Below are positions 8,012 through 47,663 of a stretch of DNA of 64,000 nucleotides, one piece after another (the stretch's first letter is position 1; every line of letters begins with the position of its first letter). Both the position numbers and the translations under genes were made by a program. The DNA is from Cohnella panacarvi Gsoil 349 (GTDB taxonomy: Bacteria > Bacillota > Bacilli > Paenibacillales > Paenibacillaceae), in assembly GCF_000515335.1 (NCBI RefSeq), contig NZ_KI911563.1, forward strand, positions 965,598 to 1,029,597, read 5' to 3'. The notes below the pieces were generated by a model. The model was not told where the DNA came from and made no database searches. It was given only the letters and a program-made list of their open reading frames with translations.

Positions 8012-8665
8012 CTATTCTCGCACGGCATTCGTCACCTGCGCGTCGACCGGAGGCGCTAATTGGGAGAGCACAACCGGCGCTACGAACGCTTCGTATAGCG
8101 CAGCGCAGAGCAGTACGGCCAGCATTAATCCGGTAACCGCCGTGTGGGCGAGAAAAGGCGGCAGCAGTTGACCCTTCCTGCGGAACAACCTCTCGCGGAC
8201 GAGGAAAAAGGCGAATCGGGCAGCGGAGACGCTGGCGATGAGCAACGCCGGCACGACGATCGCGTTCGGCAGCGCCGTCGAAGCCAGGAAGAAGAGCACC
8301 CCTTTCCAAGCAAGTTGGTCCACGAGCAGCGCGACGGCAAATCCGATCAGCATCCCTTTCAGAAAATCCAGCACGAGAACGAGCGGCAACCCGATGACCG
8401 ATACGCCGAGCAGCCAGATCAGCCCCAGCCATTTGCCGTAGAAAATAAAGCTGTCCCAGAACGCAGCCGCGTGATCGAATTGATCCGCATGCCGGATCGA
8501 CGACAGATAGAGGTCCATCTGATCGGCAAGCTCCTGCTGCTGTTCGAGCGTCAGCGCGCTGGCGAGGAAGACGCCGAACACCGCGCCGACGACGATCAAC
8601 GCCAGCATGAAGACGTACAAATTCAATTTGTCGCGAGCCGACATATTCCACAATCGAAGCTTCAC
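8012..8665 (-). CDS. spoIIM: Stage II sporulation protein M
   Basis: SpoIIM is a polytopic membrane protein that, with SpoIID and SpoIIP, drives septal peptidoglycan thinning and engulfment. The 217-residue product has about five hydrophobic segments (near residues 17-38, 78-100, 103-125, 130-150 and 178-205), as the family does, and ends in a short polar tail. Start GTG at 8665 follows GGGAGGGAG. It stands just upstream of fur, as in Bacillus, with a sigma-E-type promoter in front, which agrees with mother-cell expression. Confidence 0.93.
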   Translation of the reverse strand: MKLRLWNMSARDKLNLYVFMLALIVVGAVFGVFLASALTLEQQQELADQMDLYLSSIRHADQFDHAAAFWDSFIFYGKWLGLIWLLGVSVIGLPLVLVLDFLKGMLIGFAVALLVDQLAWKGVLFFLASTALPNAIVVPALLIASVSAARFAFFLVRERLFRRKGQLLPPFLAHTAVTGLMLAVLLCAALYEAFVAPVVLSQLAPPVDAQVTNAVRE

Positions 8666-8718
8666 GGCGACTCCCTCCCGTCCGACAACGCTAAGTTCGC
8701 GAGCTTCCTCGTAACCTA

Positions 8719-8746
8719 TGTGTATGTGGACAGGCCGCGATTATGC
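8719..8746 (-). promoter_or_regulatory. Sigma-E-type promoter of spoIIM
   Basis: GCATAAT, a 13-base spacer and CATACACA on the minus strand fit the mother-cell sigma-E pattern. The -35 overlaps the last codons of the upstream nuclease gene. The same element spacing occurs before spoIIIAA at 42253-42280. Confidence 0.75.
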
Positions 8747-9916
8747 GCCCCCGATCTTGCCGTATGCTCCGCCTGCCCCTGCTGTGAAGGAAATTCTGCC
8801 TTCTCGGGCGGCGACGATCAGCGAAGCGATCCGCTCGCCGGCGACGGCCGCCAATGCTTCTTCGGAAGCGCGGTGCAGCACTTCCATCTCCGTTCCTGCT
8901 TCCGCGAGCAGCCGTTCTCTCATCTTAGGGCCGACGCCCGGGATGAAGCTAAGCGGCGCTTGCGGCCTATACGGCGCGCGATGCGGCGGGAGCATTCCCT
9001 CCGCGCGGTCGGCAAGCTGATCGACCCGGCCCGACACTCCGCGTACGAGCTTGGTGCCGCCGCAATTCGGGCAAGCTTCCGGCGAGCCGGAAGGCAGCGC
9101 GGTTTCGCAGGCGACGCAATAGCTGGAATGATATTTGCCGAGCTGCGGATGCAAGCCGTAATTGGCGAGCACCTTGCGTCCGGAATCGCGGCGCAGCGCC
9201 AATCGCAGTTCGTCGAACGAAGGCTCGGCGACGAGAAGCTCGTTGCATTCCCTGCCGATCATGCCCGTCGAATGAGCGTCCGAATTCGTCAGCAGCGTAT
9301 ACCGGTCGAGCTCGGATAGTCGTCCGGCCATGAGCGCGTCTGCGCTAAGTCCAAGCTCGACGGCTGCGATGCCTTCCGGATCGAGCCGATCGGCGAGACG
9401 GTCGGCCGAGCAGCCGAGCAACCCGCGATGCGGCGTAAAGACGTGCGCGGGCGCGAGCAAGCCGCCGCGGGATACCAGCTCGCGCTGCAGCTCCCTTCCG
9501 GACGACCTCACGCGCTGCGAGCTAAGGTTGACGTTCGTCACCCGGGGCTTTAGCCACTCCGTCCATGCCTCCATCGCCTGCAAATCCGGCAGAAACCCGA
9601 GCAGGTGATAAGGCCCCCCTCCCTCGTCCCGCACTTCCATCTCCGCCCCGAGCAGAAGCGTCGTATTCCGGTAACGTATGCCGCCGCCGGCAATCTCCGT
9701 CATCTCGCCGCTTTCGAGGCTCGTTCGGATGTCCGCCTGCACGGCGGGCGAATGGCAATCGATGATGCCGATCAGAGCGATTCCTTTGCGCTCCGACGCT
9801 TCCTGCGCGATCGAGCGGAACGTCAGGTTTTTGCTGCCGCTGATTTTGACCGGTTGGCCGCTATCGCTGCGTCCGATGTGCACATGTAGGTCTGCGAATA
9901 CAGGCTGCAGCGTCAT
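8741..9916 (-). CDS. PHP-domain endonuclease Q-like protein (TIGR00375/YqxK)
   Basis: The 391-residue product begins MTLQPVFADLHVHIGRS, the first metal motif (HxH) of a PHP phosphoesterase, and has more ligands in IIDCHSP, GAEMEV, APAHVFTPH and TNSDAHS. A four-Cys zinc knuckle (YCVAC...CPNCGG, near 295-315) and a helix-hairpin-helix (FIPGVGPKMRERLL, near 343-356) follow. This is the architecture of EndoQ, which nicks DNA 5' of deaminated bases and abasic sites in archaea and some Bacillales. ATG 9916 shares its A with the nudF stop (TGATG), so translation is coupled. DNA-damage processing is an inference from the family. Confidence 0.88.
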   Translation of the reverse strand: MTLQPVFADLHVHIGRSDSGQPVKISGSKNLTFRSIAQEASERKGIALIGIIDCHSPAVQADIRTSLESGEMTEIAGGGIRYRNTTLLLGAEMEVRDEGGGPYHLLGFLPDLQAMEAWTEWLKPRVTNVNLSSQRVRSSGRELQRELVSRGGLLAPAHVFTPHRGLLGCSADRLADRLDPEGIAAVELGLSADALMAGRLSELDRYTLLTNSDAHSTGMIGRECNELLVAEPSFDELRLALRRDSGRKVLANYGLHPQLGKYHSSYCVACETALPSGSPEACPNCGGTKLVRGVSGRVDQLADRAEGMLPPHRAPYRPQAPLSFIPGVGPKMRERLLAEAGTEMEVLHRASEEALAAVAGERIASLIVAAREGRISFTAGAGGAYGKIGGA

Positions 9917-10482
9917 CAGAACAATCCCGTCAGCGAATAGATGCGCCAAGCCTGAACGGCCAGCAGCGTCTTCGCGTCGCATATCCGTCCGTCTCTCACG
10001 TATTCGAGCGCTTGTTCGAGCGTAATCGCTTCGCAAGTCAGAAACTCGTCCTCGTCAGGACGCAGCTCTCCTCTGTCCAGTTCTTCCGCGAAATAAAGGT
10101 GAATGATTTCGTCGGCGAAGCCCGGAGACGTAGAGAACGAGTGCAGATGCACGATGGACTTCGCTTGAAATCCCGTTTCCTCTTCCAACTCCCTAAGCGC
10201 TGCAGCCTCCGGAGCTTCGCCCGCGTCGAGCTTGCCCGCAGGAACTTCCGTCTGCGCCTTTTCCAAAGGTTTGCGATATTGCTCGACGACGAGCATTTTC
10301 CCGTCCAGCAAAGCTAGAACGGCAACGGCTCCAGGGTGGCGGACGATCTCCCGCGTCGCCGTCTCGCCGTTCGGCAACGTAACCGTATCTACCTGAAGCG
10401 AAATGACCCGTCCCTCGAAGATCGGTTTGGTCGCGATCGTGGCCTCGTAGAACGGATGCTTGCTGCCCTCTTGTTCGGTCAT
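9916..10482 (-). CDS. nudF: ADP-ribose pyrophosphatase (Nudix hydrolase)
   Basis: It hydrolyses ADP-ribose to AMP and ribose-5-phosphate. The Nudix box GKLDAGEAPEAAALRELEEETGF lies near residues 88-110 with the metal-binding REXXEE core intact. Residues FSTSPGFADEIIHLY match the ADPRase subgroup. ATG 10482 is preferred because AGGAGG precedes it by seven bases; the frame extends six codons further. The gene lies next to mciZ and upstream of the EndoQ-like gene, with which it overlaps by one base. The nudF-mciZ pairing is also known from Bacillus. Confidence 0.94.
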   Translation of the reverse strand: MTEQEGSKHPFYEATIATKPIFEGRVISLQVDTVTLPNGETATREIVRHPGAVAVLALLDGKMLVVEQYRKPLEKAQTEVPAGKLDAGEAPEAAALRELEEETGFQAKSIVHLHSFSTSPGFADEIIHLYFAEELDRGELRPDEDEFLTCEAITLEQALEYVRDGRICDAKTLLAVQAWRIYSLTGLF

Positions 10483-10601
10483 TGCGGTTCCTCCTGTCAT
10501 AGGTTCGCCAGAATGGTCATAAGTTCAACATATAGGCTTGTCCGCCGGATTGCAAGCTAGTCGGCTATGCAGGCACTGCCGCTCAAGAGAGGTGCTCCGT
10601 T

Positions 10602-10763
10602 ATGCTCAAAAAATACGCCGACCCGAACACGCTCCGATACGTAGGCAAAGCATGGGAAATTCGCCGCGCGCTTCGCCAAGAGCAACGAAGCAAAGGCGGC
10701 GATACGCCGCTTATCGTCGCGCTTCGGCTGCCAATCGAACGACCGCGCTCGCCATGGCGGTAG
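10602..10763 (+). CDS. mciZ: MciZ-like FtsZ inhibitor peptide (53 aa)
   Basis: This short frame encodes MLKKYADPNTLRYVGKAWEI and a basic tail. The VGKAWEIR core, starting near residue 14, matches the Bacillus MciZ peptide, which is made in the mother cell and caps FtsZ filaments so that no second division occurs after the polar septum. The tail after about residue 31 is longer than the roughly 40-residue Bacillus form. AGAGAGGT lies eight bases before the ATG. It is divergent from nudF, its usual neighbour. I found no clear sigma-E promoter. Confidence 0.8.
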   Translation: MLKKYADPNTLRYVGKAWEIRRALRQEQRSKGGDTPLIVALRLPIERPRSPWR

Positions 10764-11068
10764 GCTGGTCGCTGCGTAACTCGATCTCACCGCGCTATTT
10801 CGTGCATCCCCGCCGCTTTCTCGACGACACAGCGTTTTCGATTGTCGTACAGAGCGACAATATCGGGGGGTGCTGCACGGAATCTCCCTCAGATTGTAGC
10901 TGAGATCGACGATCTTGGAGAGGGGTAGGCTAAAAATAAAACGGTGGCGAGATCGCCACCGTTTAACTTTATCGATGAAGGTTACATATTCGGAATTTCA
11001 CGAAGGGAACAGCCGCCGGAAGGAGATACATGTTCCTGACCAACCTTCCATCGACTTCTTTATCCTAA
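10764..11068. other. Non-coding gap between mciZ and the PepT-like gene
   Basis: No convincing gene is seen. It holds a short inverted repeat (ATTGTCG at 10841-10847 pairing CGACAAT at 10855-10861), one diverged copy (10776-10802) of the element repeated at 62267-62343, and the terminator at 10931-10964. Confidence 0.6.
10931..10964 (-). terminator. Terminator of the PepT-like peptidase gene
   Basis: The near-perfect palindrome AACGGTGGCGA/TCGCCACCGTT is followed on the minus strand by TTTATTTTTA. It lies about 105 bases after the peptidase stop. Confidence 0.8.
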
Positions 11069-12202
11069 TTATTTCCGCGACGCCGTTTCCCCAACGATGG
11101 CGATCACGAGTTCGGTCACTTTGACGAGATCGTCCGCTTTGATGCGTTCGTTCGTCGTGTGAATGTCCTCGTAACCGACGGCCAGGTTGACGGTCGGCAC
11201 GCCGTTGCCGTTGAACATGTTGGCGTCGCTGCCGCCGCCGGAGGCGAACGTGCGCGGCGTCAAGCCGATCGAGGTAATCGCGGCTTTGGCAACCTGCACG
11301 ACTTCGTCTTCGTCGCCATAGTTGTACGCCGGGTAAATCGTGATCGTCTGGAAGTCGAATTCCGCGCCGTACTCTTTCGCCGCTGCGGCGACCGCTTCGC
11401 GCATCGACTCGACTTGGCGCTCCATCTTCTCCTGCACTTGGCTGCGGGCTTCGGCGTAAATTTTGATCGTATCCACGACGATGTTCACCTCGCCGCCGCC
11501 CTCGAACCGGCCGATATTCGCCGTCGTCTGGCTGTCGATGCGGCCCAGTCTCATCAGAGATACCGCTTTGGAGGCGACTTGAACGGCGCTGATGCCGTCT
11601 TCCGGGTTCACGCCGGCATGCGCGGCTTTGCCTTTGATCGTAATGAATTGACGCGAGTTCGTCGGCGCGGCGACCGCGATCGCGCCGACTTCGCCGTTCG
11701 AATCGAGCGCATAGCCGAATTTCGCGCGAAGGCGCGAGCCGTCCATCGCCCGCGAGCCGAGCAAGCCGGACTCTTCGCCGACGGTAATGACGAACTGGAT
11801 CGGCCCGTGAGGGATGTTGTTCTCCTTCAATAGACGGACCGCCTCGAGCATTGCCGCCAACCCGGCTTTATCGTCGGAGCCTAGAATCGTCGTGCCGTCG
11901 CCGCGGATATAACCGTCGTCGTCGAGGCGCGGCTTAATGCCTTTGCCCGGCGATACCGTATCCATATGGGAGGTGAACAGCAGCGCAGGCACGTTCTCTT
12001 GTCCCGCGCTCGCCGGCAGCCATGCGAATAAATTATTCGCGCCATGACCGATTTTGGCGCCTACGTCGTCTTCGGTCACTTCAAGGCCGAGCGCCTCGAA
12101 CTTGCCGCGCAGCACCTTGCTGATTTCGGTTTCGTATTTCGTCTCGCTGTCGATCCGAACGAGCTCCATGAACTCGGAAATTAAACGTTCTCTCTGTACC
12201 AT
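11069..12202 (-). CDS. M20-family metallopeptidase, PepT-like (YqjE)
   Basis: A 377-residue di-zinc exopeptidase. Metal ligands can be followed in order: SHMDTV near residue 77, GSDDKAG near 108, GEESGLLGS near 142 (the catalytic Glu-Glu pair), ALDSNGE near 165 and IHTTNE near 355. The central dimerisation domain runs from about 180 to 290 and includes KAAHAGVNPEDG. It groups with the PepT-like YqjE proteins rather than true PepT; the substrate is unknown and is likely a small peptide. Start ATG at 12202 follows CAGGAGG. It diverges from the prli42 gene. Confidence 0.88.
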   Translation of the reverse strand: MVQRERLISEFMELVRIDSETKYETEISKVLRGKFEALGLEVTEDDVGAKIGHGANNLFAWLPASAGQENVPALLFTSHMDTVSPGKGIKPRLDDDGYIRGDGTTILGSDDKAGLAAMLEAVRLLKENNIPHGPIQFVITVGEESGLLGSRAMDGSRLRAKFGYALDSNGEVGAIAVAAPTNSRQFITIKGKAAHAGVNPEDGISAVQVASKAVSLMRLGRIDSQTTANIGRFEGGGEVNIVVDTIKIYAEARSQVQEKMERQVESMREAVAAAAKEYGAEFDFQTITIYPAYNYGDEDEVVQVAKAAITSIGLTPRTFASGGGSDANMFNGNGVPTVNLAVGYEDIHTTNERIKADDLVKVTELVIAIVGETASRK

Positions 12203-12270
12203 TATCTTTCCTCCTGAACGCGCCTATTTTATAATAAAGAGACAACCGATCGAAAAGAGGGACTTTACCG

Positions 12271-12366
12271 ATGAACAACCGCCTAATGAAAATCGTCGTC
12301 TACGCCGTTTTAGTTACCATGGTGGTATCGACGATCGTCATGAGCCTTGGATTTCTGTTTCAATAG
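12271..12366 (+). CDS. prli42: Prli42-like stressosome membrane anchor (31 aa)
   Basis: A 31-residue miniprotein made of a short basic N-terminus (NNRLMK) and one transmembrane helix (about residues 8-30). Size and pattern match Prli42, the peptide that tethers the stressosome to the membrane in Listeria. The ATG has AGAGGGAC nine bases upstream and TTTATAAT further up. Its 3' end overlaps the convergent lipB gene by 29 bases. No stressosome genes are in the window, so the partner is unseen; the assignment rests on length and pattern. Confidence 0.65.
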   Translation: MNNRLMKIVVYAVLVTMVVSTIVMSLGFLFQ

Positions 12367-13042
12367 CGCCTTCCTCTGCGTGCTCGCTCTCGAACGCGTC
12401 CATGAAGTGCGGGATGATCCGGCGTCCGATTTCCTCAACGCTTAGCGTCAATCCGGTGAGCGCTTCGATCGAAGTTACGCCGTATTGGGCAATCCCGCAA
12501 GGAATGATCCCCTGAAACCCGTCTTGCTCTACGTTGCGCTTGACGTTCAAAGCAAACCCGTGACTGGTGACGAAACCTCGCCGGGAACGGGCTTTGTTGA
12601 ATTTGACGCCGATCGCGGCGATCTTAACGTCCCCGACCCAGACGCCGGTATACTCCGGCTTCCTTCCGCCTTCGATACCGAATTCGGCCAGCAGACGAAT
12701 AATCGCTTCCTCAAGCGTCCGCAAATACTTATGTAAATCAAGTCCTGCCGCGTCCAAATACAACAGCGGGTATCCGACAAGCTGCCCGGGGCCGTGATAC
12801 GTAATATCTCCGCCGCGGTCGATCTCGTATAGGGAAATCCCTCGCCTGTCGAGCTCCTCCGCGCCGTATAGCAGATGCTCCGGATGACGGTCGGAACCGA
12901 TCGTGTACGTCGGCGGATGCTCTAGCAGCAGCAGCGTCTCGCCCCGTTCCTCGCGATCGATCTCCCGCACGAGATTCTTCTGCAACTCCCAAGCTTCGCC
13001 GTAGTCGATCATGGATAACCATTGCGTCGATATCGTTCTCAT
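12338..13042 (-). CDS. lipB: Octanoyl-[acyl-carrier-protein]:protein N-octanoyltransferase LipB
   Basis: It moves octanoate from ACP to lipoyl domains, the first step of protein lipoylation. The 234-residue product has LLLEHPPTYTIG near 40-51, the GGDITYHGPGQLVGYPLL signature near 75-92, the Lys of AAIGVK near 142 and the catalytic Cys in IIPCGI near 182. ATG 13042 fits LipB homologues; GGAGG lies 13 bases upstream, which is long, and a sigma-A promoter at 13080-13108 rules out the longer frame. The next gene upstream encodes a lipoylated E2, so LipB probably serves that complex. Confidence 0.93.
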   Translation of the reverse strand: MRTISTQWLSMIDYGEAWELQKNLVREIDREERGETLLLLEHPPTYTIGSDRHPEHLLYGAEELDRRGISLYEIDRGGDITYHGPGQLVGYPLLYLDAAGLDLHKYLRTLEEAIIRLLAEFGIEGGRKPEYTGVWVGDVKIAAIGVKFNKARSRRGFVTSHGFALNVKRNVEQDGFQGIIPCGIAQYGVTSIEALTGLTLSVEEIGRRIIPHFMDAFESEHAEEGAIETEIQGS

Positions 13043-13079
13043 AACGATGACCGGGCCTCCTCCCTGCGTGACATTATCC

Positions 13080-13108
13080 ATTGTAACGCAATAAAAACGC
13101 CGACTCAA
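13080..13108 (-). promoter_or_regulatory. Sigma-A-type promoter of lipB
   Basis: TTGAGT, a 17-base spacer and TACAAT are read on the minus strand. The expected start point lies about 30 bases before ATG 13042. Confidence 0.7.
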
Positions 13109-13130
13109 TTCGTTGGCGCATACAGACGTC

Positions 13131-13177
13131 AAGAGGCTGTCCCTCGGTCCGAGATGACCGGACGGAACAGCCCTCTT
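13131..13177 (-). terminator. Hairpin after bkdB, possible terminator
   Basis: The arms AAGAGGCTGT and ACAGCCCTCTT enclose a second nested stem. No T run follows on the minus strand, so termination is uncertain. Confidence 0.4.
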
Positions 13178-13195
13178 GCAGTCGGGATTACTCTA

Positions 13196-14503
13196 TTAAT
13201 ACAGCTTCGTGTCCATATTGTAGCTTTCAAGGATGGCCTTGATCCGCTGATGGAACATACCGCAAATGACTCCGTCCAGAATCCGGTGGTCGAACGACAA
13301 GCATAAGTTAACCATGGACCGTACGCCGATCATGTCGCCGATGACGACGGGACGCTTCACGATCGCCTCGAACGTGAGAATGGCAGCCTGCGGGAAGTTG
13401 ATGATCGGATAGGACAGGACCGATCCGAACGTGCCGGTGTTGTTGAGCGTGAACGTACCGCCTTGCACGTCGTTCAGCTTAAGCTTGCCCTCGCGGGTCC
13501 GTTTCGCCAAGTCGTTGATCTCGTGAGCGAGCCCGACGATATTCTTCTGGTCGGCGTTGCGGATCACCGGAGTCAGTACGGAGCCTTCCGTACCGACGGC
13601 CATCGAGATGTTAATATCGCGCTTGACCGTAATTTTGTCCGTCGCCCAGACGGAGTTCATGATCGGGAACTCTTTGATCGCCGATACGACCGCGTTCATC
13701 AGGAACGGCATATACGTAAGGTTAATGCCTTCGTTCTTCATGAAGTCGTCCTTAAGCTTGGAACGCAGTTGAACGAGGTTCGTCAGATCGACCTCGATCA
13801 TCGTCCAAGCATGCGGGATCTCGTTCATGCTCTGTCGCATATTCTTAGCGATCGTATTGCGGATCGGGGTAACGTCGATGTAGTATTCGCGTCCCGGTGC
13901 CGTCGCGCCTTCGACGACGACGGTCGGGAGGTCCGACGTCTCGGCGATGCGAGGCGCACGGATCGGCGCTGCCGGTGCGACACGCGATTGCGCCGCTGCC
14001 CCGGGCTTGTATTCAAGCACGTCCTTACGCGTAATGCGTCCGCCTTCGCCCGTGCCCGTCACCAAGCCTAAGTCGATGCCGCGTTCGGCAGCGATTCTCT
14101 GCACAGCCGGCGAATAGCGGGCTCTCATCGGTGCGTTCGCATCGAACCCCGCCGCGGCTGCTGCCGCGACGCCGGTAGGCCGCGCGTTCGTCTGCGACTG
14201 CACGGGTTGTTGGATAGTCGGAGCAGACGTCGCGGCAGGCGTATCCTCCGCCTCCGCCTCCGTCTCGACGAGACAGATCGCGGCGCCAACCTCGATCGTC
14301 TCGCCCGCCCCGGCCAAAATTTTGACGAGAGTTCCTTTCACCGTGGAAGGGAGCTCCGCGTTCACTTTATCGGTGATGAGCTCGCAAAGCGGCTCGTACA
14401 TATCCACGCTGTCCCCCGGCTGCTTCAACCATTGATCGATCGTTGCGGATACGAGCGATTCGCCGAGCTGCGGCATCGTTACTTCGACGATTTGTTTTGC
14501 CAT
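13196..14503 (-). CDS. bkdB: Branched-chain 2-oxoacid dehydrogenase E2 (lipoyl acyltransferase)
   Basis: E2 core of the complex, which transfers the acyl group to CoA. The domain order is clear: a lipoyl domain at about 3-78 with Lys in ELITDKVNAEL, a proline/alanine linker, the peripheral-subunit-binding domain at about 128-165 (SPAVQRIAAERGIDL...TGTGEGGRITRKDV) and the acyltransferase domain at about 205-435 with the catalytic stretch LSFDHRILDG. Length is 435 residues. ATG 14503 follows AAGGAGA. The ITDKV lipoyl motif and the E1 partners suit the branched-chain type, but a pyruvate or acetoin role cannot be excluded from E2 alone. Confidence 0.92.
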   Translation of the reverse strand: MAKQIVEVTMPQLGESLVSATIDQWLKQPGDSVDMYEPLCELITDKVNAELPSTVKGTLVKILAGAGETIEVGAAICLVETEAEAEDTPAATSAPTIQQPVQSQTNARPTGVAAAAAAGFDANAPMRARYSPAVQRIAAERGIDLGLVTGTGEGGRITRKDVLEYKPGAAAQSRVAPAAPIRAPRIAETSDLPTVVVEGATAPGREYYIDVTPIRNTIAKNMRQSMNEIPHAWTMIEVDLTNLVQLRSKLKDDFMKNEGINLTYMPFLMNAVVSAIKEFPIMNSVWATDKITVKRDINISMAVGTEGSVLTPVIRNADQKNIVGLAHEINDLAKRTREGKLKLNDVQGGTFTLNNTGTFGSVLSYPIINFPQAAILTFEAIVKRPVVIGDMIGVRSMVNLCLSFDHRILDGVICGMFHQRIKAILESYNMDTKLY

Positions 14504-14538
14504 AAACAATCTCCTTCCTGCAACCGGCTGCCGGTCTT

Positions 14539-15525
14539 CTAGTACCGCGCCAACTCAAGCATGGCCGATTTGACTTTCTCTTTGTTGAGCAGAAAATGCT
14601 TCTCTCCCGGCGGGTTAATCGCCATTGCCGGAATGTCCGGGCCGCACAGCCTGCGGATCGGCGCATCAAGATCGTAAAGCAGCTCTTCGGCGATCATCGC
14701 GGCGACTTCCGCGCCGACTCCGCCGGTCTTGTTATCTTCGTGTATGATAAGAACTTTGCCCGTCTTCGCAGCGGCTTCGAGAATCGCTTCCCGATCGAGC
14801 GGTTGAATCGTGCGCAAATCGAGAATATGCGCTTCGACGCCTTCGTCCCGCGCCAGCTCTTCTGCCGCCTGCATGGCAAAATGCAGCGGCATGCTATATC
14901 CGATAACCGTAATGTCGCTGCCTTCTCTCATGACGTTCGCTTTGCCGATCGGAACGATGTAGTCTTCGTCCGGCACTTCGTCCGAGATGAGACGATAGCA
15001 CTTCTTGTTCTCGAAGAACAGCACAGGATCCGGGTCGCGGATGGCCGCCTTCAGCAAGCCTTTCGCGTCGTAAGCCGTTGCCGGAGCTACGATCTTAAGG
15101 CCCGGCGTGCCGAAAAACACCGACTCCGGACATTGGGAATGGTACAATCCGCCGAAAATCCCGCCGCCGATCGGCGCGCGGATGACGATCGGACAATCCC
15201 AATCGTTATTGGAGCGATAACGGATCTTCGCCGCTTCGCTAATTATTTGATTCGTTGCCGGGAACATGAAGTCGGAGTATTGCATCTCCGCGACCGGTCT
15301 CATTCCGACCATCGCCGCACCGATCGCTACGCCGGCGATCGCGGATTCCGCGAGCGGAGTATCGATCGCCCGCTCCTCGCCGAATTGCTGGTAGAGGCCT
15401 TTGGTCGTGCCGAATACGCCGCCCTTCTTGCCGACGTCCTCGCCGAGGACGAATACGCTGCCGTCGCGTTCCATCTCTTCCTTCATGGCCAGACGAATCG
15501 CTTCGATATATTCGATGACCGCCAT
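14539..15525 (-). CDS. bkdAB: Branched-chain 2-oxoacid dehydrogenase E1 beta subunit
   Basis: A 328-residue transketolase-like beta subunit. It shows VFVLGEDVGKKGGVFGTTKGL near 24-44, EMQYSDFMFPA near 87, IRAPIGGGIFGGLYHSQCPE near 120-139 and the C-terminal DLRTIQPLDREAI near 230. It makes the TPP site together with the alpha subunit. ATG 15525 overlaps the bkdAA stop in TGATG, so the two are translationally coupled at equal stoichiometry. AGGTGAAGAG serves as the ribosome site. Confidence 0.95.
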   Translation of the reverse strand: MAVIEYIEAIRLAMKEEMERDGSVFVLGEDVGKKGGVFGTTKGLYQQFGEERAIDTPLAESAIAGVAIGAAMVGMRPVAEMQYSDFMFPATNQIISEAAKIRYRSNNDWDCPIVIRAPIGGGIFGGLYHSQCPESVFFGTPGLKIVAPATAYDAKGLLKAAIRDPDPVLFFENKKCYRLISDEVPDEDYIVPIGKANVMREGSDITVIGYSMPLHFAMQAAEELARDEGVEAHILDLRTIQPLDREAILEAAAKTGKVLIIHEDNKTGGVGAEVAAMIAEELLYDLDAPIRRLCGPDIPAMAINPPGEKHFLLNKEKVKSAMLELARY

Positions 15526-16553
15526 CAGCTCTTCACCTCGCTTGAATCCGCAAAGACGTACCGTTCCGAATCTTCCGCGGGCTGGAACGGGGCACGCTCC
15601 GCGTACTGGGTCGCTTCGTCGATGATCGCGCGAAACTCCGCCAGCAGCTTCGTTTCCTGTTCGTCGGACCATAACCCGGCTTCGACGAGATAATTTCTGA
15701 AGCCGTCGATCGGGTCGTTCTGCTTAAACGGCTCGACTTCTTCCTTCGTCCGATAATCCAAATCGTTGTCCGTCGTGGAGTGTCCCGTCACGCGGTACGA
15801 AATAATCTCGACGAGCGTCGGCCCTTCGCCGGCGATCGCCCGCTCGCGCGCTTCTTTCACGACGCGGTACACTTCGAGCGGATCGTTGCCGTCCACCCGG
15901 ATGCCCGGAAACCCGTATCCGATCGCGCGCTCGTAAATGTTGCCCCGCGTCTGCTTCGACAAAGGAACGGAAATCGCGTATTGGTTGTTCTGACAAACGA
16001 AAATAACAGGCAGCTTATGCACGCCGGCAAAGTTGCAGCCTTCATGAAAATCGCCTTGGTTGCTCGATCCGTCTCCGAACGAGACGATAGACACGGATTT
16101 CTCCCCGCGCATCTTCGCGGCGAGCGCGATGCCGGTCGCATGCGGCACTTGCGTCGTTACGGGACTCGAGCCCGTTACGATGCGCAGGCGCTTGGAACCG
16201 AAGTGACCCGGCATCTGGCGTCCCGCGCTGTTCGGATCTTCCTCTTTAGCGAACAGGGCCAGCATCAGGTCTTTGACCGTCATGCCGACGGAAAGCACGA
16301 AGCCGTAATCCCGGTAGTAAGGCAAGAACCAGTCGGTCGTCGTATCCATCGCGAACGCCATGGCGACTTGCGACGGCTCTTGCGTAATGCCCGAAATATG
16401 AAAATTCACTTTGCCCGCGAGCTTAAGCAATTGGCCTCGCTCGTCGTACTTTCGAGCAAGCTGCATCATTCTGTACATCTCGACGACTCGCTCGTCGGAT
16501 AAGCCTAACCGGGCATGCCTTGAAGTTTGCTGGACGGAACCGGACTGTTTCAT
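15525..16553 (-). CDS. bkdAA: Branched-chain 2-oxoacid dehydrogenase E1 alpha subunit
   Basis: A 342-residue TPP-dependent decarboxylase subunit that oxidises 2-oxoacids from valine, leucine and isoleucine to acyl groups on E2. The TPP-binding GDGSSNQGDFHEGCNFAG motif ends with the QNNQYAIS stretch near 190-197, and GHSTTDNDLDYR near 275 is the phosphorylation-loop region of the family. ATG 16553 follows AGGAGGACGC. The gap to lpdV holds two TATAAT-like boxes on the minus strand but no good -35. The products are precursors of branched fatty acids, the main membrane lipids of these bacteria. Confidence 0.93.
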   Translation of the reverse strand: MKQSGSVQQTSRHARLGLSDERVVEMYRMMQLARKYDERGQLLKLAGKVNFHISGITQEPSQVAMAFAMDTTTDWFLPYYRDYGFVLSVGMTVKDLMLALFAKEEDPNSAGRQMPGHFGSKRLRIVTGSSPVTTQVPHATGIALAAKMRGEKSVSIVSFGDGSSNQGDFHEGCNFAGVHKLPVIFVCQNNQYAISVPLSKQTRGNIYERAIGYGFPGIRVDGNDPLEVYRVVKEARERAIAGEGPTLVEIISYRVTGHSTTDNDLDYRTKEEVEPFKQNDPIDGFRNYLVEAGLWSDEQETKLLAEFRAIIDEATQYAERAPFQPAEDSERYVFADSSEVKS

Positions 16554-16732
16554 AGGCGCGTCCTCCTAGCTTTCACTTTGTATTATAACCTGGTCTTAAT
16601 ACTTGAACTTAATCCCTATTATACTCTCCTTGGTAACAAAAAGAAACGTCCAACTACACAAGGTTTCCAAGCACGCTTCGGCGCGCCTGGAGCTGTGCAG
16701 GGACGATGCGGCATGCCGCGGTTTCGGTATGG

Positions 16733-18163
16733 TTAAGCGTGTCCGGCTCCTCCGTCCAACGCCAGCATGACTTCTTGCAAAGCTTCGGAGAGCGTCGGAT
16801 GCGGATGGACCGCGCGGCCGATCTCCCAAGGCACGGCATCCAGCAGCTTTGCGAGCGACGCTTCGGCGATCAGATCGGTCGCGTGCGCGCCGACGAGATG
16901 AACGCCGAGCAAGTCTCCGCTCTTCTCATCCGCGACGACCTTCGCGAACCCTTCGGCTTCGCCGTACACGAGCGCTTTGCCGAGAATTCGCAACGGAATT
17001 TTGGCCGTCTTCACGGCATGGCCGTTCGCCTTCGCGTCAGCTTCGGAATAGCCGATCGACGCGGCTTCCGGCCTTGAATAAATACAGCGCGGAATATCCC
17101 GGTCAGCCGAACGCGGCAGTTTCGTACCCAGCATATGATCGACCGCAACCGCGGCCTCGTGCATGGCTGCATGAGCCAGTTGAACGCCTCCGATGCAATC
17201 GCCGATCGCGTAGATGTGGGACTCTCCCGTCTGCAGCGTCTTCGCATCGACGACGACAAACCCTCTATCCGTCTTCACGTCCGTATTCTCCAACGTCAGA
17301 TGCTCGACGTTGCCTTGACGGCCTACCGACACGAGCATCTTCTCCGCGCTCAGCGAATGCGTCTTATCGCCGAGAACGACGTCCGCATGCACGCCGCCTT
17401 CGTCAACCCGGCACGACTCGATCCGAAGCGCGGCGCCGGTCAGCACGCTGACGCCTCTCTTCTTAAGCGCTTTGGCCAGCTCCGAGCTGACGTCTCTGTC
17501 CTCGCCCGGCACGAGCCGGTCCGCAGCCTCTACGATCGTCACTTCCGCGCCGAAGTCGCTCAGCATCGAAGCCCATTCCACGCCGATGACGCCTCCTCCG
17601 ACGATGACGATCGACTTCGGCAGTCTCGGCCAGCCGAACGCCTCGTCGCTCGTGACGACCGTCGTTCCGTCGTACGGCAATCCGTCTAACCGGCGTGGCC
17701 GCGATCCCGTCGCGATGATGACGTTCTTCGGCACGATGGTTTCGGTCTCGCCGTTATCGAGCGCGACGAACACCGATCCGCTGCGCGGAGAGAAAATATT
17801 AGGACCGATAATATTGCCGCTCCCGTGCAGCACCTGAATGCGATGCTGATTCATGAGCGCTTGCAAACCTTTATGTAATTGCTCGACGATTCCGGTTTTG
17901 CGCGATAGCACAGTCGTCCAATCGACGCGAATCTCCCCGTCCGGAACCTGCACGCCGTAGGCTGATGCTGCCACAGTCGTAGCATATACTTCCGCGCTTC
18001 GCAGCAGCGATTTGCTCGGAATGCAGCCGCGATGCAGACACGTGCCGCCAAGCTTGTCTTGCTCGATGATGACGACGCTGCGTCCGGCTTGCGCCGCCCT
18101 GACCGCCGCGGTGTAGCCTCCCGGCCCGCCGCCGATAATGGCGACATCGACTTCGATTGGCAT
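16733..18163 (-). CDS. lpdV: Dihydrolipoyl dehydrogenase (E3)
   Basis: FAD enzyme that reoxidises the lipoyl arm of the 2-oxoacid dehydrogenase. FAD-binding GGGPGGYTAAVRAAQ lies at about 11-25, the redox disulfide in GGTCLHRGCIPSK at about 41-53, the NAD-binding GGGVIGVEWASM at about 180-191 and the interface His-Glu in HPHPTLSE near 452. Length is 476 residues. ATG 18163 follows GGAGGGG; the frame opens 28 codons further but a sigma-A promoter lies there. It is the first gene of the bkd cluster, as in Bacillus lpdV, though the usual ptb-bcd-buk genes before it are missing. Confidence 0.93.
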   Translation of the reverse strand: MPIEVDVAIIGGGPGGYTAAVRAAQAGRSVVIIEQDKLGGTCLHRGCIPSKSLLRSAEVYATTVAASAYGVQVPDGEIRVDWTTVLSRKTGIVEQLHKGLQALMNQHRIQVLHGSGNIIGPNIFSPRSGSVFVALDNGETETIVPKNVIIATGSRPRRLDGLPYDGTTVVTSDEAFGWPRLPKSIVIVGGGVIGVEWASMLSDFGAEVTIVEAADRLVPGEDRDVSSELAKALKKRGVSVLTGAALRIESCRVDEGGVHADVVLGDKTHSLSAEKMLVSVGRQGNVEHLTLENTDVKTDRGFVVVDAKTLQTGESHIYAIGDCIGGVQLAHAAMHEAAVAVDHMLGTKLPRSADRDIPRCIYSRPEAASIGYSEADAKANGHAVKTAKIPLRILGKALVYGEAEGFAKVVADEKSGDLLGVHLVGAHATDLIAEASLAKLLDAVPWEIGRAVHPHPTLSEALQEVMLALDGGAGHA

Positions 18164-44134: not shown

Positions 44135-44199
44135 GACGTGGAGCCGGTATCGGCTTCGTTCGTTCATGACCGGTTAGCCGTACTTCGCGTCCCGAACAA

Positions 44200-44246
44200 G
44201 GGGGCGTCCCTGGTCTCTTAATAGACCTCCGGGACGCCTCTTTGCG
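44200..44246 (+). terminator. Terminator after the DUF441 gene
   Basis: A long stem GGGGCGTCCC...GGTCT / AGACC...GGGACGCCTC with a short loop is followed by TTTGCG. It insulates the next cassette. Confidence 0.7.
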
Positions 44247-44368: not shown

Positions 44369-45346
44369 ATGACAACTTCAAAAAATGATCGGATTCATTC
44401 ATCTGTAGATCCATCCGCAAATCTGAGGGAGTTGCATAAGTCTTCAGCGGCTGTAACACAGAATGAAACTTGCTTACGGTTATACAAGGAGCTCATGCAG
44501 CCTTGTGACGAACTTGCCGACGCGGAAGCGACGCTGGATCCCGCTCAATGGAAATGCGCCCCGCTGGATGAACTGCCATTGTCTTCGGCCGCCAACGTCT
44601 TGAGTATCGTGAACTACGCTTACAACGCAAGGTTCTTGAACGATGGCTTTGACTATGCCGAGGTCATTAGCATGGAATCGTTGAGCACACCTTCCGCGCG
44701 TACGCTCGTCGTATATCAGTCTATCGGCGATCGGCTATTAGCGCTCGGCACTTGGAGAGTCGTATGGGGGGATTGTCTAGAATCCTTCGAACTCTTCGAA
44801 ATGAATTCCGGGTATCCATGGCCGCACGAGGAAGGAAGCACAATCCCCAAACAGACCGCCGAAGTCAGCAGACTAGCTTTTCACCCTATTCTGGATGTCG
44901 GGAATCACGCAAGTATAAAGATGCACAAATTGGCATTAAGAATGAAGCAACGAGCCTTTCGGTTGTTATGGGCTGAAGGTATTCGCTGTATGCTGGCCGA
45001 GCGCGTGGAATTGTTTTATTTGATCATGACCCCCGCAGTCAGAAGATTTCTTGAAAGTTGCGGCGTGCAATCAAGGGCCGTCGACGGCGCAAGCCATAAG
45101 GACCGTGAAGAAACGAAGCAGATGCGCATACAGTTCAACAATTATTGGCGCCCGGGCGCCCCCCGCCTCGGAGATGCCCGCATTGTACACCGCGCTATGG
45201 GAGTTACTGAATACTCAGAAAGAACGCAACAAGTATCCGTCGGACGAATTGTTGATGGAAATCGCCCGGCGAAGGCAGATGAGCCAAACAAGCCCGCCGC
45301 TTTATCATCCTGTATTTTATCGGCTTCAGGCGGAGGAAGATTGTAA
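44369..45346 (+). CDS. GNAT/LuxI-like N-acyltransferase, probably frameshifted at its 3' end
   Basis: The product resembles the FeeM/autoinducer-synthase branch of acyltransferases. After a polar N-terminus of about 90 residues come the strands TLVVYQSIGDRLLALGTWRVV (near 113-133), an acidic loop, TAEVSRLAFHP near 165-175 (the EVSRL-type pyrophosphate-side motif) and RLLWAEGIRCMLAERVELFYLIM near 199. Protein-like sequence stops at NYWRPGAP (near 265), inside a C6 run (45159-45164); beyond it the frame to 45346 looks random, while the +1 frame reads on as PALYTALWELLNTQKE. ATG 44369 follows GGAGGT; ATG 44351 is the alternative. Early codons are A/T-rich compared with neighbours. Substrate unknown; an acyl donor plus an amino compound is inferred. 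Confidence 0.7.
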   Translation: MTTSKNDRIHSSVDPSANLRELHKSSAAVTQNETCLRLYKELMQPCDELADAEATLDPAQWKCAPLDELPLSSAANVLSIVNYAYNARFLNDGFDYAEVISMESLSTPSARTLVVYQSIGDRLLALGTWRVVWGDCLESFELFEMNSGYPWPHEEGSTIPKQTAEVSRLAFHPILDVGNHASIKMHKLALRMKQRAFRLLWAEGIRCMLAERVELFYLIMTPAVRRFLESCGVQSRAVDGASHKDREETKQMRIQFNNYWRPGAPRLGDARIVHRAMGVTEYSERTQQVSVGRIVDGNRPAKADEPNKPAALSSCILSASGGGRL

Positions 45347-47591
45347 GCGCCTTCAAGAATTGTTCGAGCAGCATTCGGACATTCAGGTTAGAGACGAAAT
45401 CGAAGGACAGTTGGCTGAATTAATCAAGTCGCGCCACCCCTACCGCAAATATACGGAAGACGAGCTAAAGGTAGCCGTTCATCGGCACGCAGGCGCGACC
45501 CCGATGGAACAGTACGGAGTGTGGGTCTATTATCCATGGCTGCGTACGTTGACGCACTTACTGGACGAGCAAGAATTCGTCCTGCTGCGCACGAACCGCA
45601 ACCGTTACAAAATTACGGACGAAGAACAGCAAGCGCTCGCCGGCAAAAAAGTCGGGATCATCGGACTCTCCGTCGGACAGTCTATTGCCGTTACGATGGC
45701 GATGGAACGCGGGTTTGGCGAAATCCGTCTGGGAGATTTCGATACGTTGGAGCTAACCAACCTGAACCGAATTCGAAGCGGCGTGCACAATCTCGGGGCG
45801 GCCAAAGTCATCGTCACCGCCAGGGAGATCGCCGAGATTGATCCATTTTTAAAAGTCATTTGTTACACAGAGGGGGTAAATGAGGAGAATATCGACCGGT
45901 TTATGCTGGATGGAGGCAAGTTGGATATTATGGTCGACGAATGCGATAGCATCGACATGAAAATATTGGCGCGGCAACGCGCGAAGGCGCACCGCATTCC
46001 CGTCGTTATGGATACGAGCGATCGGGGATTGCTGGATATCGAACGATTCGACCTCGATCCGGCTCGCCCGATCCTCCACGGACTCATCGGCAACCTTGAT
46101 TATCAGATGCTCAAAGGTTTAACCACCGAAGATAAAGTGCCTTATATCTTAAGGATCATCGGAATAGATGCCATATCCAAACGGATGAAAGCCTCGCTCG
46201 TCGAAGTCGAGAAGAGTATCAGCACTTGGCCGCAATTAGCCTCCGCCGTCGTGCTCGGAGGCGCGCTAGGAGCGGACGTATGCCGCAGGATCTCTCTCGG
46301 CCAACATCAGCATTCCGGTCGCTACTATGTAGATCTTGAGCAGGCGGTTCCTGATCAAGCGATGGAAGTTCCCGAGCACGAGCCGAATTTCTTGTTAACC
46401 GCAAAGGGACATCATCCATTGGAGAGGCCGATGTCGTTGTCGATAGATGAGATGACGCGAAGGATTCGAATGTGCGACCGGGTAGACGCGGGCGCTATCC
46501 GCTTATCGAAGGAACAGGTGCGGCATCTTGTCGAGCAAGCCGTTATGGCTCCATCCGGCGGCAATGTCCAACCCTGGCAATGGGTGCATGAACCGGGGCG
46601 ATTGCATTTATTCCTTGATCCGTCCAAGCCGGATACTTTCCTGGACGCGCACCGCATTGCCGCCTACATGTCGCTTGGCTCGGCGGCGGAGAATTTGACG
46701 CTTGCCGCTTATATGCTCGGCTTGCAAGTCCGCTCTCGGCCGTTTCCGGTCGAAGACGACCCGGCATTCGCGTGCAGCTTTGAATTTTTCCATGACAAAT
46801 CTCGGGCCAACGATAAATTTGCCTATTTAGCCGAATTCATTCCTCGTCGCATAACCAACCGCAAAGCAACCGGAAGGAAGAGTATCTCCATCGAGTCGCT
46901 CGATCGCATCAAGCAAAGCGCGGAATCGATACAGGGCGCCAAGATGCACTTGCTAGATAAAGCCGAACAGCTTGATGAGATCGGACAAATCATTGCTTCG
47001 GCGGAACGAATGCGAATTTTGCATCCCGAAGCGCATGCCAATATGGTATCCGAGCTCCGTTGGACGGATGAAGAAGTCACCGCGACGAGAGACGGCGTAG
47101 ACCTTGCGACGTTGGAATTAACGACGACGGATTGGGCAGGCATCCGAATAACGAGCGACCCGTCTGTCGTTGCGCTTATTCGAGATTGGAGAGGCGGCGC
47201 GAACTTGGAGAAAGTCCCTCGCAAAATGCTCGCGTCCGCATCGAACGCAGCGCTGATTACGATGCCCTCCAACCGTCCTATCGATTATTTCAACGGCGGA
47301 CGCGCCGTACAACGAGCCTGGCTCGAAGCGACCAAGCAGAACGTGGCCTTCCAGCCGCTATCCGTAGTGACCTATATGTTCTCTCGACTGTTCCATTACG
47401 GAGAGGAGCGGTTCATGCAGCCTTCCATGGTCGCCGAGCTGAAACGGTTGCGCAGCCGCTTTGTGACGTTGTTTCCGATTGCGCCCGGAATGGGCGAAAT
47501 CTTCTTATTCCGATTAGGCGTGGAAGAAGCGCCGCGAATCCGCTCTCTCCGCAGATACGCGGACGATGTGTTGTCTTTCGTTGACATCTGA
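45174..47591 (+). CDS. ThiF/E1-like adenylating domain fused to nitroreductase (Rv1355c family)
   Basis: An N-terminal helical part (to about 135, with PLYHPVFYRL and GQLAELIKSRHPY) precedes an E1/ThiF domain: KVGIIGLSVGQS near 159-170 (nucleotide loop), LGDFDTLELTNLNRI near 187-201 and IMVDECDSID near 250-259. An FMN nitroreductase domain follows from about 440: AVMAPSGGNVQPWQWV near 456-471 and RRITNRKATGR near 558-568. No catalytic Cys or CxxC zinc site is evident, so ubiquitin-like thioester transfer is doubtful; adenylation plus a redox step is more likely. The start is uncertain: ATG 45174, 45255 or 45279, none with a good ribosome site. The open frame runs back to 45051 and would continue the acyltransferase if one C were lost. 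Confidence 0.82.
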   Translation: MPALYTALWELLNTQKERNKYPSDELLMEIARRRQMSQTSPPLYHPVFYRLQAEEDCKRLQELFEQHSDIQVRDEIEGQLAELIKSRHPYRKYTEDELKVAVHRHAGATPMEQYGVWVYYPWLRTLTHLLDEQEFVLLRTNRNRYKITDEEQQALAGKKVGIIGLSVGQSIAVTMAMERGFGEIRLGDFDTLELTNLNRIRSGVHNLGAAKVIVTAREIAEIDPFLKVICYTEGVNEENIDRFMLDGGKLDIMVDECDSIDMKILARQRAKAHRIPVVMDTSDRGLLDIERFDLDPARPILHGLIGNLDYQMLKGLTTEDKVPYILRIIGIDAISKRMKASLVEVEKSISTWPQLASAVVLGGALGADVCRRISLGQHQHSGRYYVDLEQAVPDQAMEVPEHEPNFLLTAKGHHPLERPMSLSIDEMTRRIRMCDRVDAGAIRLSKEQVRHLVEQAVMAPSGGNVQPWQWVHEPGRLHLFLDPSKPDTFLDAHRIAAYMSLGSAAENLTLAAYMLGLQVRSRPFPVEDDPAFACSFEFFHDKSRANDKFAYLAEFIPRRITNRKATGRKSISIESLDRIKQSAESIQGAKMHLLDKAEQLDEIGQIIASAERMRILHPEAHANMVSELRWTDEEVTATRDGVDLATLELTTTDWAGIRITSDPSVVALIRDWRGGANLEKVPRKMLASASNAALITMPSNRPIDYFNGGRAVQRAWLEATKQNVAFQPLSVVTYMFSRLFHYGEERFMQPSMVAELKRLRSRFVTLFPIAPGMGEIFLFRLGVEEAPRIRSLRRYADDVLSFVDI

Positions 47592-47623: not shown

Positions 47624-47663
47624 CAAAAAAAGAACAACGGCACCGACTGCCGTTGTTCTTTCG
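47624..47663. terminator. Bidirectional terminator between the ThiF-nitroreductase gene and lysC
   Basis: A perfect 14-base stem AAAGAACAACGGCA/TGCCGTTGTTCTTT with a five-base loop is flanked by A and T runs and serves both convergent genes. Confidence 0.9.

Follow-up and report, generated by a model that had tools for sequence, protein, structure and literature searches.

A putative oxazolone synthetase-like gene pair, probably acquired horizontally, in Cohnella panacarvi Gsoil 349

Introduction

What might be made by a pair of genes that interrupts an otherwise conserved chromosomal order in a single Cohnella genome? Within a 64,000-nucleotide stretch of the Cohnella panacarvi Gsoil 349 genome (contig NZ_KI911563.1, positions 965,598 to 1,029,597; hereafter, the window), positions 44369-47591 are filled by two overlapping frames on the + strand. 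ORF1 (open reading frame 1; 44369-45346, +) is an open frame of 325 residues with an orphan sequence, for which we propose a function as an amino-acid N-acyltransferase, and ORF2 (45174-47591, +) would encode a TrzS-like fusion of a ThiF-type cyclase followed by a flavin-dependent oxidase. A first-pass annotation of the window had read the pair as a FeeM/LuxI-like acyltransferase and a ThiF-nitroreductase fusion, and both frames, together with the strings quoted for them (EVSRL at ORF1 residue 165, LLWAEGIRCMLAERV, LTNLNRI, DECD, and APSGGNVQPW), were found as described. Our analysis suggests that the cassette encodes an oxazolone synthetase of the TrzAS/OxzAB type, a reading to which we assign a probability of roughly 0.6.

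The family to which ORF2 belongs had been described in that annotation as lacking an established function, a statement that is now outdated. Rv1356c and Rv1355c are TrzA and TrzS (PMC12856293); TrzA acylates L-tryptophan, and the cyclase-desaturase TrzS performs the ATP-driven ring closure and then the O2-dependent desaturation of N-acyl-tryptophan, with an Asp variant deficient in cyclization and an Arg variant deficient in desaturation (PMC12856293). Oxazolones are hydrolyzed by acid, the ring-closed TrzAS products were recovered by optimized extraction, and the biological role of oxazolones was termed a major unresolved question (PMC12856293). According to the available portion of PMC10404671, TyzACB of Mycobacterium tuberculosis makes tyrazolones from tyrosine, and OxzAB of Pseudoalteromonas rubra, as recounted in PMC12856293 and that portion of PMC10404671, yields tyrazolones and phenazolones. 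The three-step chemistry proposed for the cassette from its sequence (N-acylation, adenylation, and flavin redox leading to a modified acyl-amino acid) is therefore already known for the Rv1355c family; it agrees in outline with the chemistry demonstrated for TrzA/TrzS and TyzACB and reported for OxzAB, and the part left unconfirmed is the identity of ORF1 as an acyltransferase.

Results

ORF2 as a Member of the Rv1355c/TrzS Family

ORF2 matched the NCBIfam model NF005901 ("Rv1355c family protein") with 820.6 bits against a cut-off of 476 (E = 1.1e-246), covering profile positions 7-719 of 722. Pfam searches recognized a ThiF domain (4e-19; residues 144-278) and a Nitroreductase domain (1.7e-9), the NCBIfam Acg family matched residues 452-733, and the best sequence match in the PDB was Acg (2ymv; E = 1.7e-9). 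The ThiF-type adenylating (cyclase) domain was accordingly placed at approximately 45600-46320 (+) and the Acg-like flavin-dependent oxidase domain at approximately 46490-47560 (+). Eleven relatives from Bacteroidota and Actinomycetota, 31-39% identical to the window protein and including proteins from Dyadobacter, Nocardia, Mycolicibacterium, Mycobacterium, and Rhodococcus, aligned with it from end to end, which showed that one chain carries the ThiF domain and then the Acg-type oxidase, both complete.

ORF2 retains the nucleotide loop and, as D188, D190, N198, R199, K211, and D258, the ThiF residues of DFD and NLNR, a lysine, and the DECD motif (second Asp). DFD, NLNR, K211, and D258 are conserved across the 12 aligned proteins. 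We take these to be the ATP-site residues of ThiF/MoeB. Judging from its spacing, D258 probably corresponds to Asp217 of the M. smegmatis enzyme. Well-conserved columns were also occupied by Arg559, Arg563, Arg612, Arg614, Arg629, and Gln727, in a numbering that is not anchored to the oxidase residues Arg540 and Gln651, and the Gln727 column held His in three Rhodococcus proteins. By these matches ORF2 is a complete member of the Rv1355c/TrzS family with its two-domain build. Translation could start at ATG 45174 (805 residues) or ATG 45279 (770 residues), with the stop at 47591, and the N-termini of the homologues favor 45279.

Related Loci in Bacteroidota and on Actinobacterial Plasmids

Matches at 1e-60 were found in 10 of 395 Bacteroidota genomes, at 11 places, of which five encoded ThiF-oxidase fusions and six ThiF alone; no separate oxidase relative was found in the stretches around the latter six. 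At 10 of the 11 loci, the ThiF gene adjoined a small gene belonging to a single sequence type, and the eleventh (locus L063) carried a different small gene upstream. Among the actinobacterial Rv1355c-family copies read, six of nine likewise had an adjoining small gene that we took for an acyltransferase, bringing such a gene beside ThiF in 11/11 Bacteroidota and 6/9 actinobacterial cases.

A kinase homologous to that of locus L010 lay immediately beside the pair in 10 of the 11 Bacteroidota loci. These kinases were 35-66% identical to one another, and the gap to the preceding gene ranged from -16 to +39 base pairs (bp) in the eight loci tabulated. Three of the ten were run through Pfam, all three being 7TMR-DISM kinases, and the others are classified as such by homology; the association was counted without control for the frequency of such kinases beside other genes. 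The runs at L010 (5120-12205), L064-L066, and L068-L073 comprised the small acyltransferase-type gene, a ThiF gene that is fused to the oxidase in some of them, and 7TMR-DISM-type and receiver-histidine kinases. In the literature searched, with subscription papers mostly outside its reach, no paper joined 7TMR-DISM with N-acyl amino acids or their synthases, acyl-homoserine lactones, ThiF, autoinducer synthases, or oxazolones. A literature search on oxazolone, N-acyl, and ThiF gave no mention of Bacillota; a prior description elsewhere is possible.

Thirteen plasmid records, all from Actinomycetota genera, contained a relative of ORF2, and ten of these were examined. A TrzA-type gene was present in Nocardia (one copy, an unannotated frame) and in four Rhodococcus records (five copies); in the Nocardia pair, the stop codon of the TrzA-type gene overlaps the start codon of the fusion. 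The five Rhodococcus plasmid copies (L015 and L078-L081) lay near GGDEF genes, just as genes for cyclic di-GMP (c-di-GMP) are reported near trzAS (PMC12856293), and a GAF-GGDEF-like frame was read by eye downstream of the Nocardia pair (L074). On three mycobacterial plasmids (L014, L075, and L076), the Rv1355c-family gene adjoined a cytochrome P450 gene and a gene for a TetR regulator. One Streptomyces plasmid had ThiF with a GNAT gene; at L077 (5173-8087), also on a Streptomyces plasmid, a 622-residue ThiF protein was followed directly by a gene for beta-ketoacyl-ACP synthase 3.

ORF1 as a Candidate Acyltransferase

ORF1 had no match in Pfam, NCBIfam, PADLOC, PHROGs, or the plasmid records, gave chance-level matches only against the PDB, and was found in its own genome only among 197 genomes of the family and 378 of the phylum. 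Its sequence contains an E-x-S-R motif at residue 165 (EVSRLAF), which we take to be a strand motif characteristic of LuxI/FeeM. Of the 282 frames of at least 200 residues in the related loci, a single one carried the motif (ELSRVAV), namely the gene lying just upstream of the L063 fusion. The pattern was devised once both ORF1 and the L063 gene had been seen, and neither the 10 common Bacteroidota genes nor the TrzA-type genes contain it. Profile-profile and profile-sequence comparisons related ORF1 to neither of two neighbor-gene groups, and they likewise missed the L063 gene (1.2 bits).

The acyltransferase-type genes beside the relatives resembled ORF1 in their lack of matches. The Rhodococcus TrzA-type gene had no match in Pfam or NCBIfam, the Nocardia TrzA-type gene had chance-level PDB matches only, the common Bacteroidota small-gene type gave chance-level matches only, and for the L063 small gene NCBIfam and the PDB gave no match and Pfam at best a GNAT match of E = 0.23. 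Since these genes also go without significant matches, the lack of matches for ORF1 says little either way.

Codon preference favored the ORF1 frame as far as about 45150 and the ORF2 frame from about 45250 onward, and was comparable for both in between; upstream, the ORF2 frame stays open to 45051 or beyond. A run of six C residues (45159-45164, +) lies in this zone of transition. The shift fits either an overlapping, coupled gene pair or a frameshifted fusion.

Several observations count against the oxazolone synthetase assignment. A profile built from 14 neighbor genes taken for acyltransferases gave ORF1 no score at all; when the L063 gene was added to the profile, an equally high score was reached by 132 of 1000 shuffles of ORF1 and by 41 of the 263 control frames, nine of these 41 or of the controls at large being acyltransferase-type genes themselves. 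The two neighbor-gene types aligned weakly with each other end to end (E = 0.016; probability 2.9%), their acyltransferase labels derive from position (for the actinobacterial type, also from the published gene order), and they had no significant Pfam, NCBIfam, or PDB match where tried. No recognizable acyltransferase adjoined the fusion in the three mycobacterial plasmid copies, all three of which were read. Structure models were unusable for ORF1 (AlphaFold2, no alignment; predicted local distance difference test [pLDDT] 33.4) and for ORF2 (one relative; pLDDT 35.7). In addition, a disruption of the ORF1 frame is possible around 45160.

The FeeM/LuxI-like identity put forward for ORF1 at the outset thus retains its position and the E-x-S-R motif in its favor and receives no support from sequence searches, profile searches, or structure prediction. 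On those two grounds we consider it plausible that ORF1 works like an acyltransferase, and we do not place it in the TrzA, FeeM, or LuxI family.

Insertion, Distribution, and Origin

The flanking genes are here called yqhV, DUF441, lysC, and efp from a reading of their sequences, without family search. The DUF441-like protein had matches in 31 of 37 genomes of the genus, the present one included. In 24 of 29 congener loci, the DUF441-like and lysC-like genes were separated by 27-1055 bp (median 106), as against 3542 bp in the window; in the remaining five, the lysC-like gene fell outside the stored flank, one of them at a contig end. Neither ORF1 nor ORF2 occurred at this site in any of the 29 loci. 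The interruption of a conserved gene order that had been noted from the window alone is therefore real.

The ORF2 family was present in one of 197 family genomes and one of 398 phylum genomes, each time the C. panacarvi genome itself. No relative was found in 378 Pseudomonadota genomes at 1e-40, in a search that lacked any positive, so that absence there is unproven, and no relative of the pair was found among viral contigs and phages. When contigs were searched with ORF2 by exact short patterns, Dyadobacter gave the one full relative, and two further relatives were weak. A tree built from the ThiF part grouped the actinobacterial Rv1355c-type proteins in a clade with 100/100 support that excluded the window protein, whose nearest row was a protein from Bacteroidota, the phylum of Dyadobacter; the deeper forks were poorly supported, with 9 of 18 inner branches open. 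By BLASTP, the ThiF part of the window protein was 54% identical over 359 residues to the Bacteroidota protein of locus L068. These data suggest that the pair was likely acquired from outside the genus. Because the window protein falls outside the actinobacterial clade, tryptophan cannot be assumed as its substrate.

Local Signals Around the Cassette

A strong terminator-like hairpin (44197-44244, +; -33 kcal/mol, z = -6.98) lies between the DUF441-like gene and ORF1, and none of 200 shuffles reached an equally low energy. Between ORF2 and the lysC-like gene, a second hairpin (47629-47661; z = -3.92 on the + strand and -4.76 on the - strand) is a possible two-way terminator; its long run of T falls on the minus strand, and it may serve lysC. 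Promoter-like sites numbered 4 (3.0 ± 1.7 in shuffles) and terminator-like sites 7 (4.3 ± 2.1). The promoter that had been attributed to the pair is weakly supported, and neither site count was clearly above shuffles. The A/T-rich beginning described earlier was also seen, the 5' end of ORF1 having a guanine-cytosine (GC) content of 43% against 56.8% for the whole window; ORF1 overall was at 50.8%, a value equally low in 5.7% of equal-sized pieces.

A Second Set in the Same Genome

The genome contains a second oxazolone-like set in locus L017 (G000:C1:2974000-2992000), at 8438-16851 of that locus (G000:C1 about 2982437-2990850). Its fusion protein (668 residues) has the reversed order, with the oxidase first and then ThiF, and was not found in 15 relatives. 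The other genes encode weakly GNAT-like, AMP-binding C-terminal-like, and FMO-like proteins, and a histidine kinase with an Hpt-type domain stands between two response regulators, the latter read by eye. The possibility that this kinase is of the 7TMR-DISM type was rejected, as the domain was seen neither by Pfam nor by a profile of the Bacteroidota kinases.

Discussion

The assignment of the cassette as an oxazolone synthetase draws on the NF005901 match and the end-to-end alignment with 11 relatives in which the ThiF residues are kept, on the biochemical demonstration that Rv1355c acts as a cyclase-desaturase after an N-acyltransferase, and on the small gene beside ThiF in all Bacteroidota loci and most of the actinobacterial copies. 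It draws further on the arrangement of the pair, in which ORF1 precedes and overlaps ORF2 (the Nocardia genes also overlap, at stop and start), and on its insertion where congeners have closely spaced genes. In the proposed scheme, ORF1 would acylate an amino acid on its amino group. By analogy with proven relatives, the ThiF domain of ORF2 would adenylate the carboxylate, whereupon the amide oxygen would close the 5(4H)-oxazolone ring, and the flavin mononucleotide (FMN)-dependent oxidase domain would desaturate the alpha-beta bond using O2.

This scheme and its alternatives overlap in part. The same enzymes might release an open N-acyl dehydro-amino acid, with the oxazolone as a hydrolyzing intermediate, an outcome that we regard as rather unlikely. 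Open products are exemplified by the stieleriacines and the kyonggic and thalassotalic acids, for which the available portion of PMC12479983 describes N-acyl tyrosine synthase genes accompanied by ThiF and nitroreductase genes without an oxazolone having been seen, and the lability of oxazolones in acid (PMC12856293) would be consistent with such a fate; against it, the ring-closed products of TrzAS were recovered once extraction was optimized (PMC12856293). A different possibility, which we find doubtful, is that ORF1 is not an acyltransferase and that ORF2 uses an acyl-amino acid made elsewhere or another carboxylate. ORF1 has no detectable kin, and the mycobacterial plasmids pair the fusion with a cytochrome P450 gene in place of a recognizable acyltransferase gene; the position of ORF1, its overlap with ORF2, and the E-x-S-R motif, rare as it is under a post hoc pattern, argue the other way.

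We give about the same low credence to decay of the pair, in which ORF1 would have suffered a frameshift close to the C6 run or would formerly have been joined to ORF2, and the pair would yield no product. The change of codon preference between about 45150 and 45250 and the open ORF2 frame upstream would agree with this, and the NCBIfam model PRK14852 has approximately 316 residues before its ThiF part that could be an acyltransferase; yet ORF2 is intact over about 770 residues, and an overlapping start is also present in the Nocardia pair. Least probable by far, and hardly credible in our view, is a role for ORF2 as an E1-like enzyme in protein conjugation or defense: the PADLOC E1-E2 matches (best 2.6e-9) were limited to the ThiF part, whereas the full-length family match was to Rv1355c with its oxidase half, and no E2-like or ubiquitin-like neighbor was seen by eye in the frame lists, the neighbors having had no family search. 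Taken together, we regard the window pair as real, oxazolone synthetase-like, and probably horizontally acquired.

An oxazolone synthetase at this site would place oxazolone-type biosynthesis in a Bacillota genome that appears, from its gene content, to be spore-forming (frames resembling spoIIIAA and spo0A were read by eye from the sequence). The position of the pair outside the clade of demonstrated tryptazolone producers makes a different product chemistry likely. A further, tentative idea, which we think improbable as it stands, is that N-acyl oxazolones or their precursor acyl-amino acids form a class of extracellular signals with dedicated receptors. It arises from the tight Bacteroidota gene runs of small acyltransferase-type gene, ThiF cyclase, 7TMR-DISM-type kinase, and receiver-kinase, from the several actinobacterial loci near c-di-GMP genes, and from the C. 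panacarvi genome itself, which holds the window pair, as a sender lacking a receiver, and the L017 fusion with its kinase and two response regulators. The 7TMR-DISM kinase in 10 of 11 Bacteroidota loci hints at signaling, and it is this association in the relatives that we consider the part of the finding most worth following, as the sensor-kinase loci turn the role of oxazolones into a concrete question: does the product activate the neighboring kinase?

Comparison with known systems places the window pair near several oxazolone pathways. The oxidase half of ORF2 is similar in sequence to the Acg nitroreductase family (PDB 2ymv; E = 1.7e-9), although the 2ymv chain of 330 residues represents the oxidase part alone. 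The Bacteroidota loci (L010/L067, L063-L066, and L068-L073) share a ThiF part up to 54% identical (L068) and an adjacent small acyltransferase-type gene, and differ in their small-gene types, in the 6 of 11 loci where ThiF has no fused oxidase, and in the 7TMR-DISM-type kinase, which the window pair does not have. TyzACB of M. tuberculosis unites the same three activities, but with ThiF and the oxidase as separate proteins and, in the available portion of PMC10404671, with tyrosine or phenylalanine and C12 chains. OxzAB of P. rubra, known here by published descriptions, pairs an acyltransferase with a ThiF-oxidase fusion as in our proposal, and OxzB falls into a different ThiF and oxidase subcluster from Rv1355c (PMC12856293 and the same portion of PMC10404671). 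From TrzA-TrzS, which performs tryptazolone synthesis, the pair is set apart by the 33-35% identity of ORF2 to its Nocardia, Mycolicibacterium, and Mycobacterium plasmid relatives, by the place of ORF2 outside the 100/100-supported actinobacterial clade, and by the lack of a detectable relation between ORF1 and TrzA-type genes; the two systems nevertheless share a curated protein family, the same domain order, and a two-gene set with a small upstream gene.

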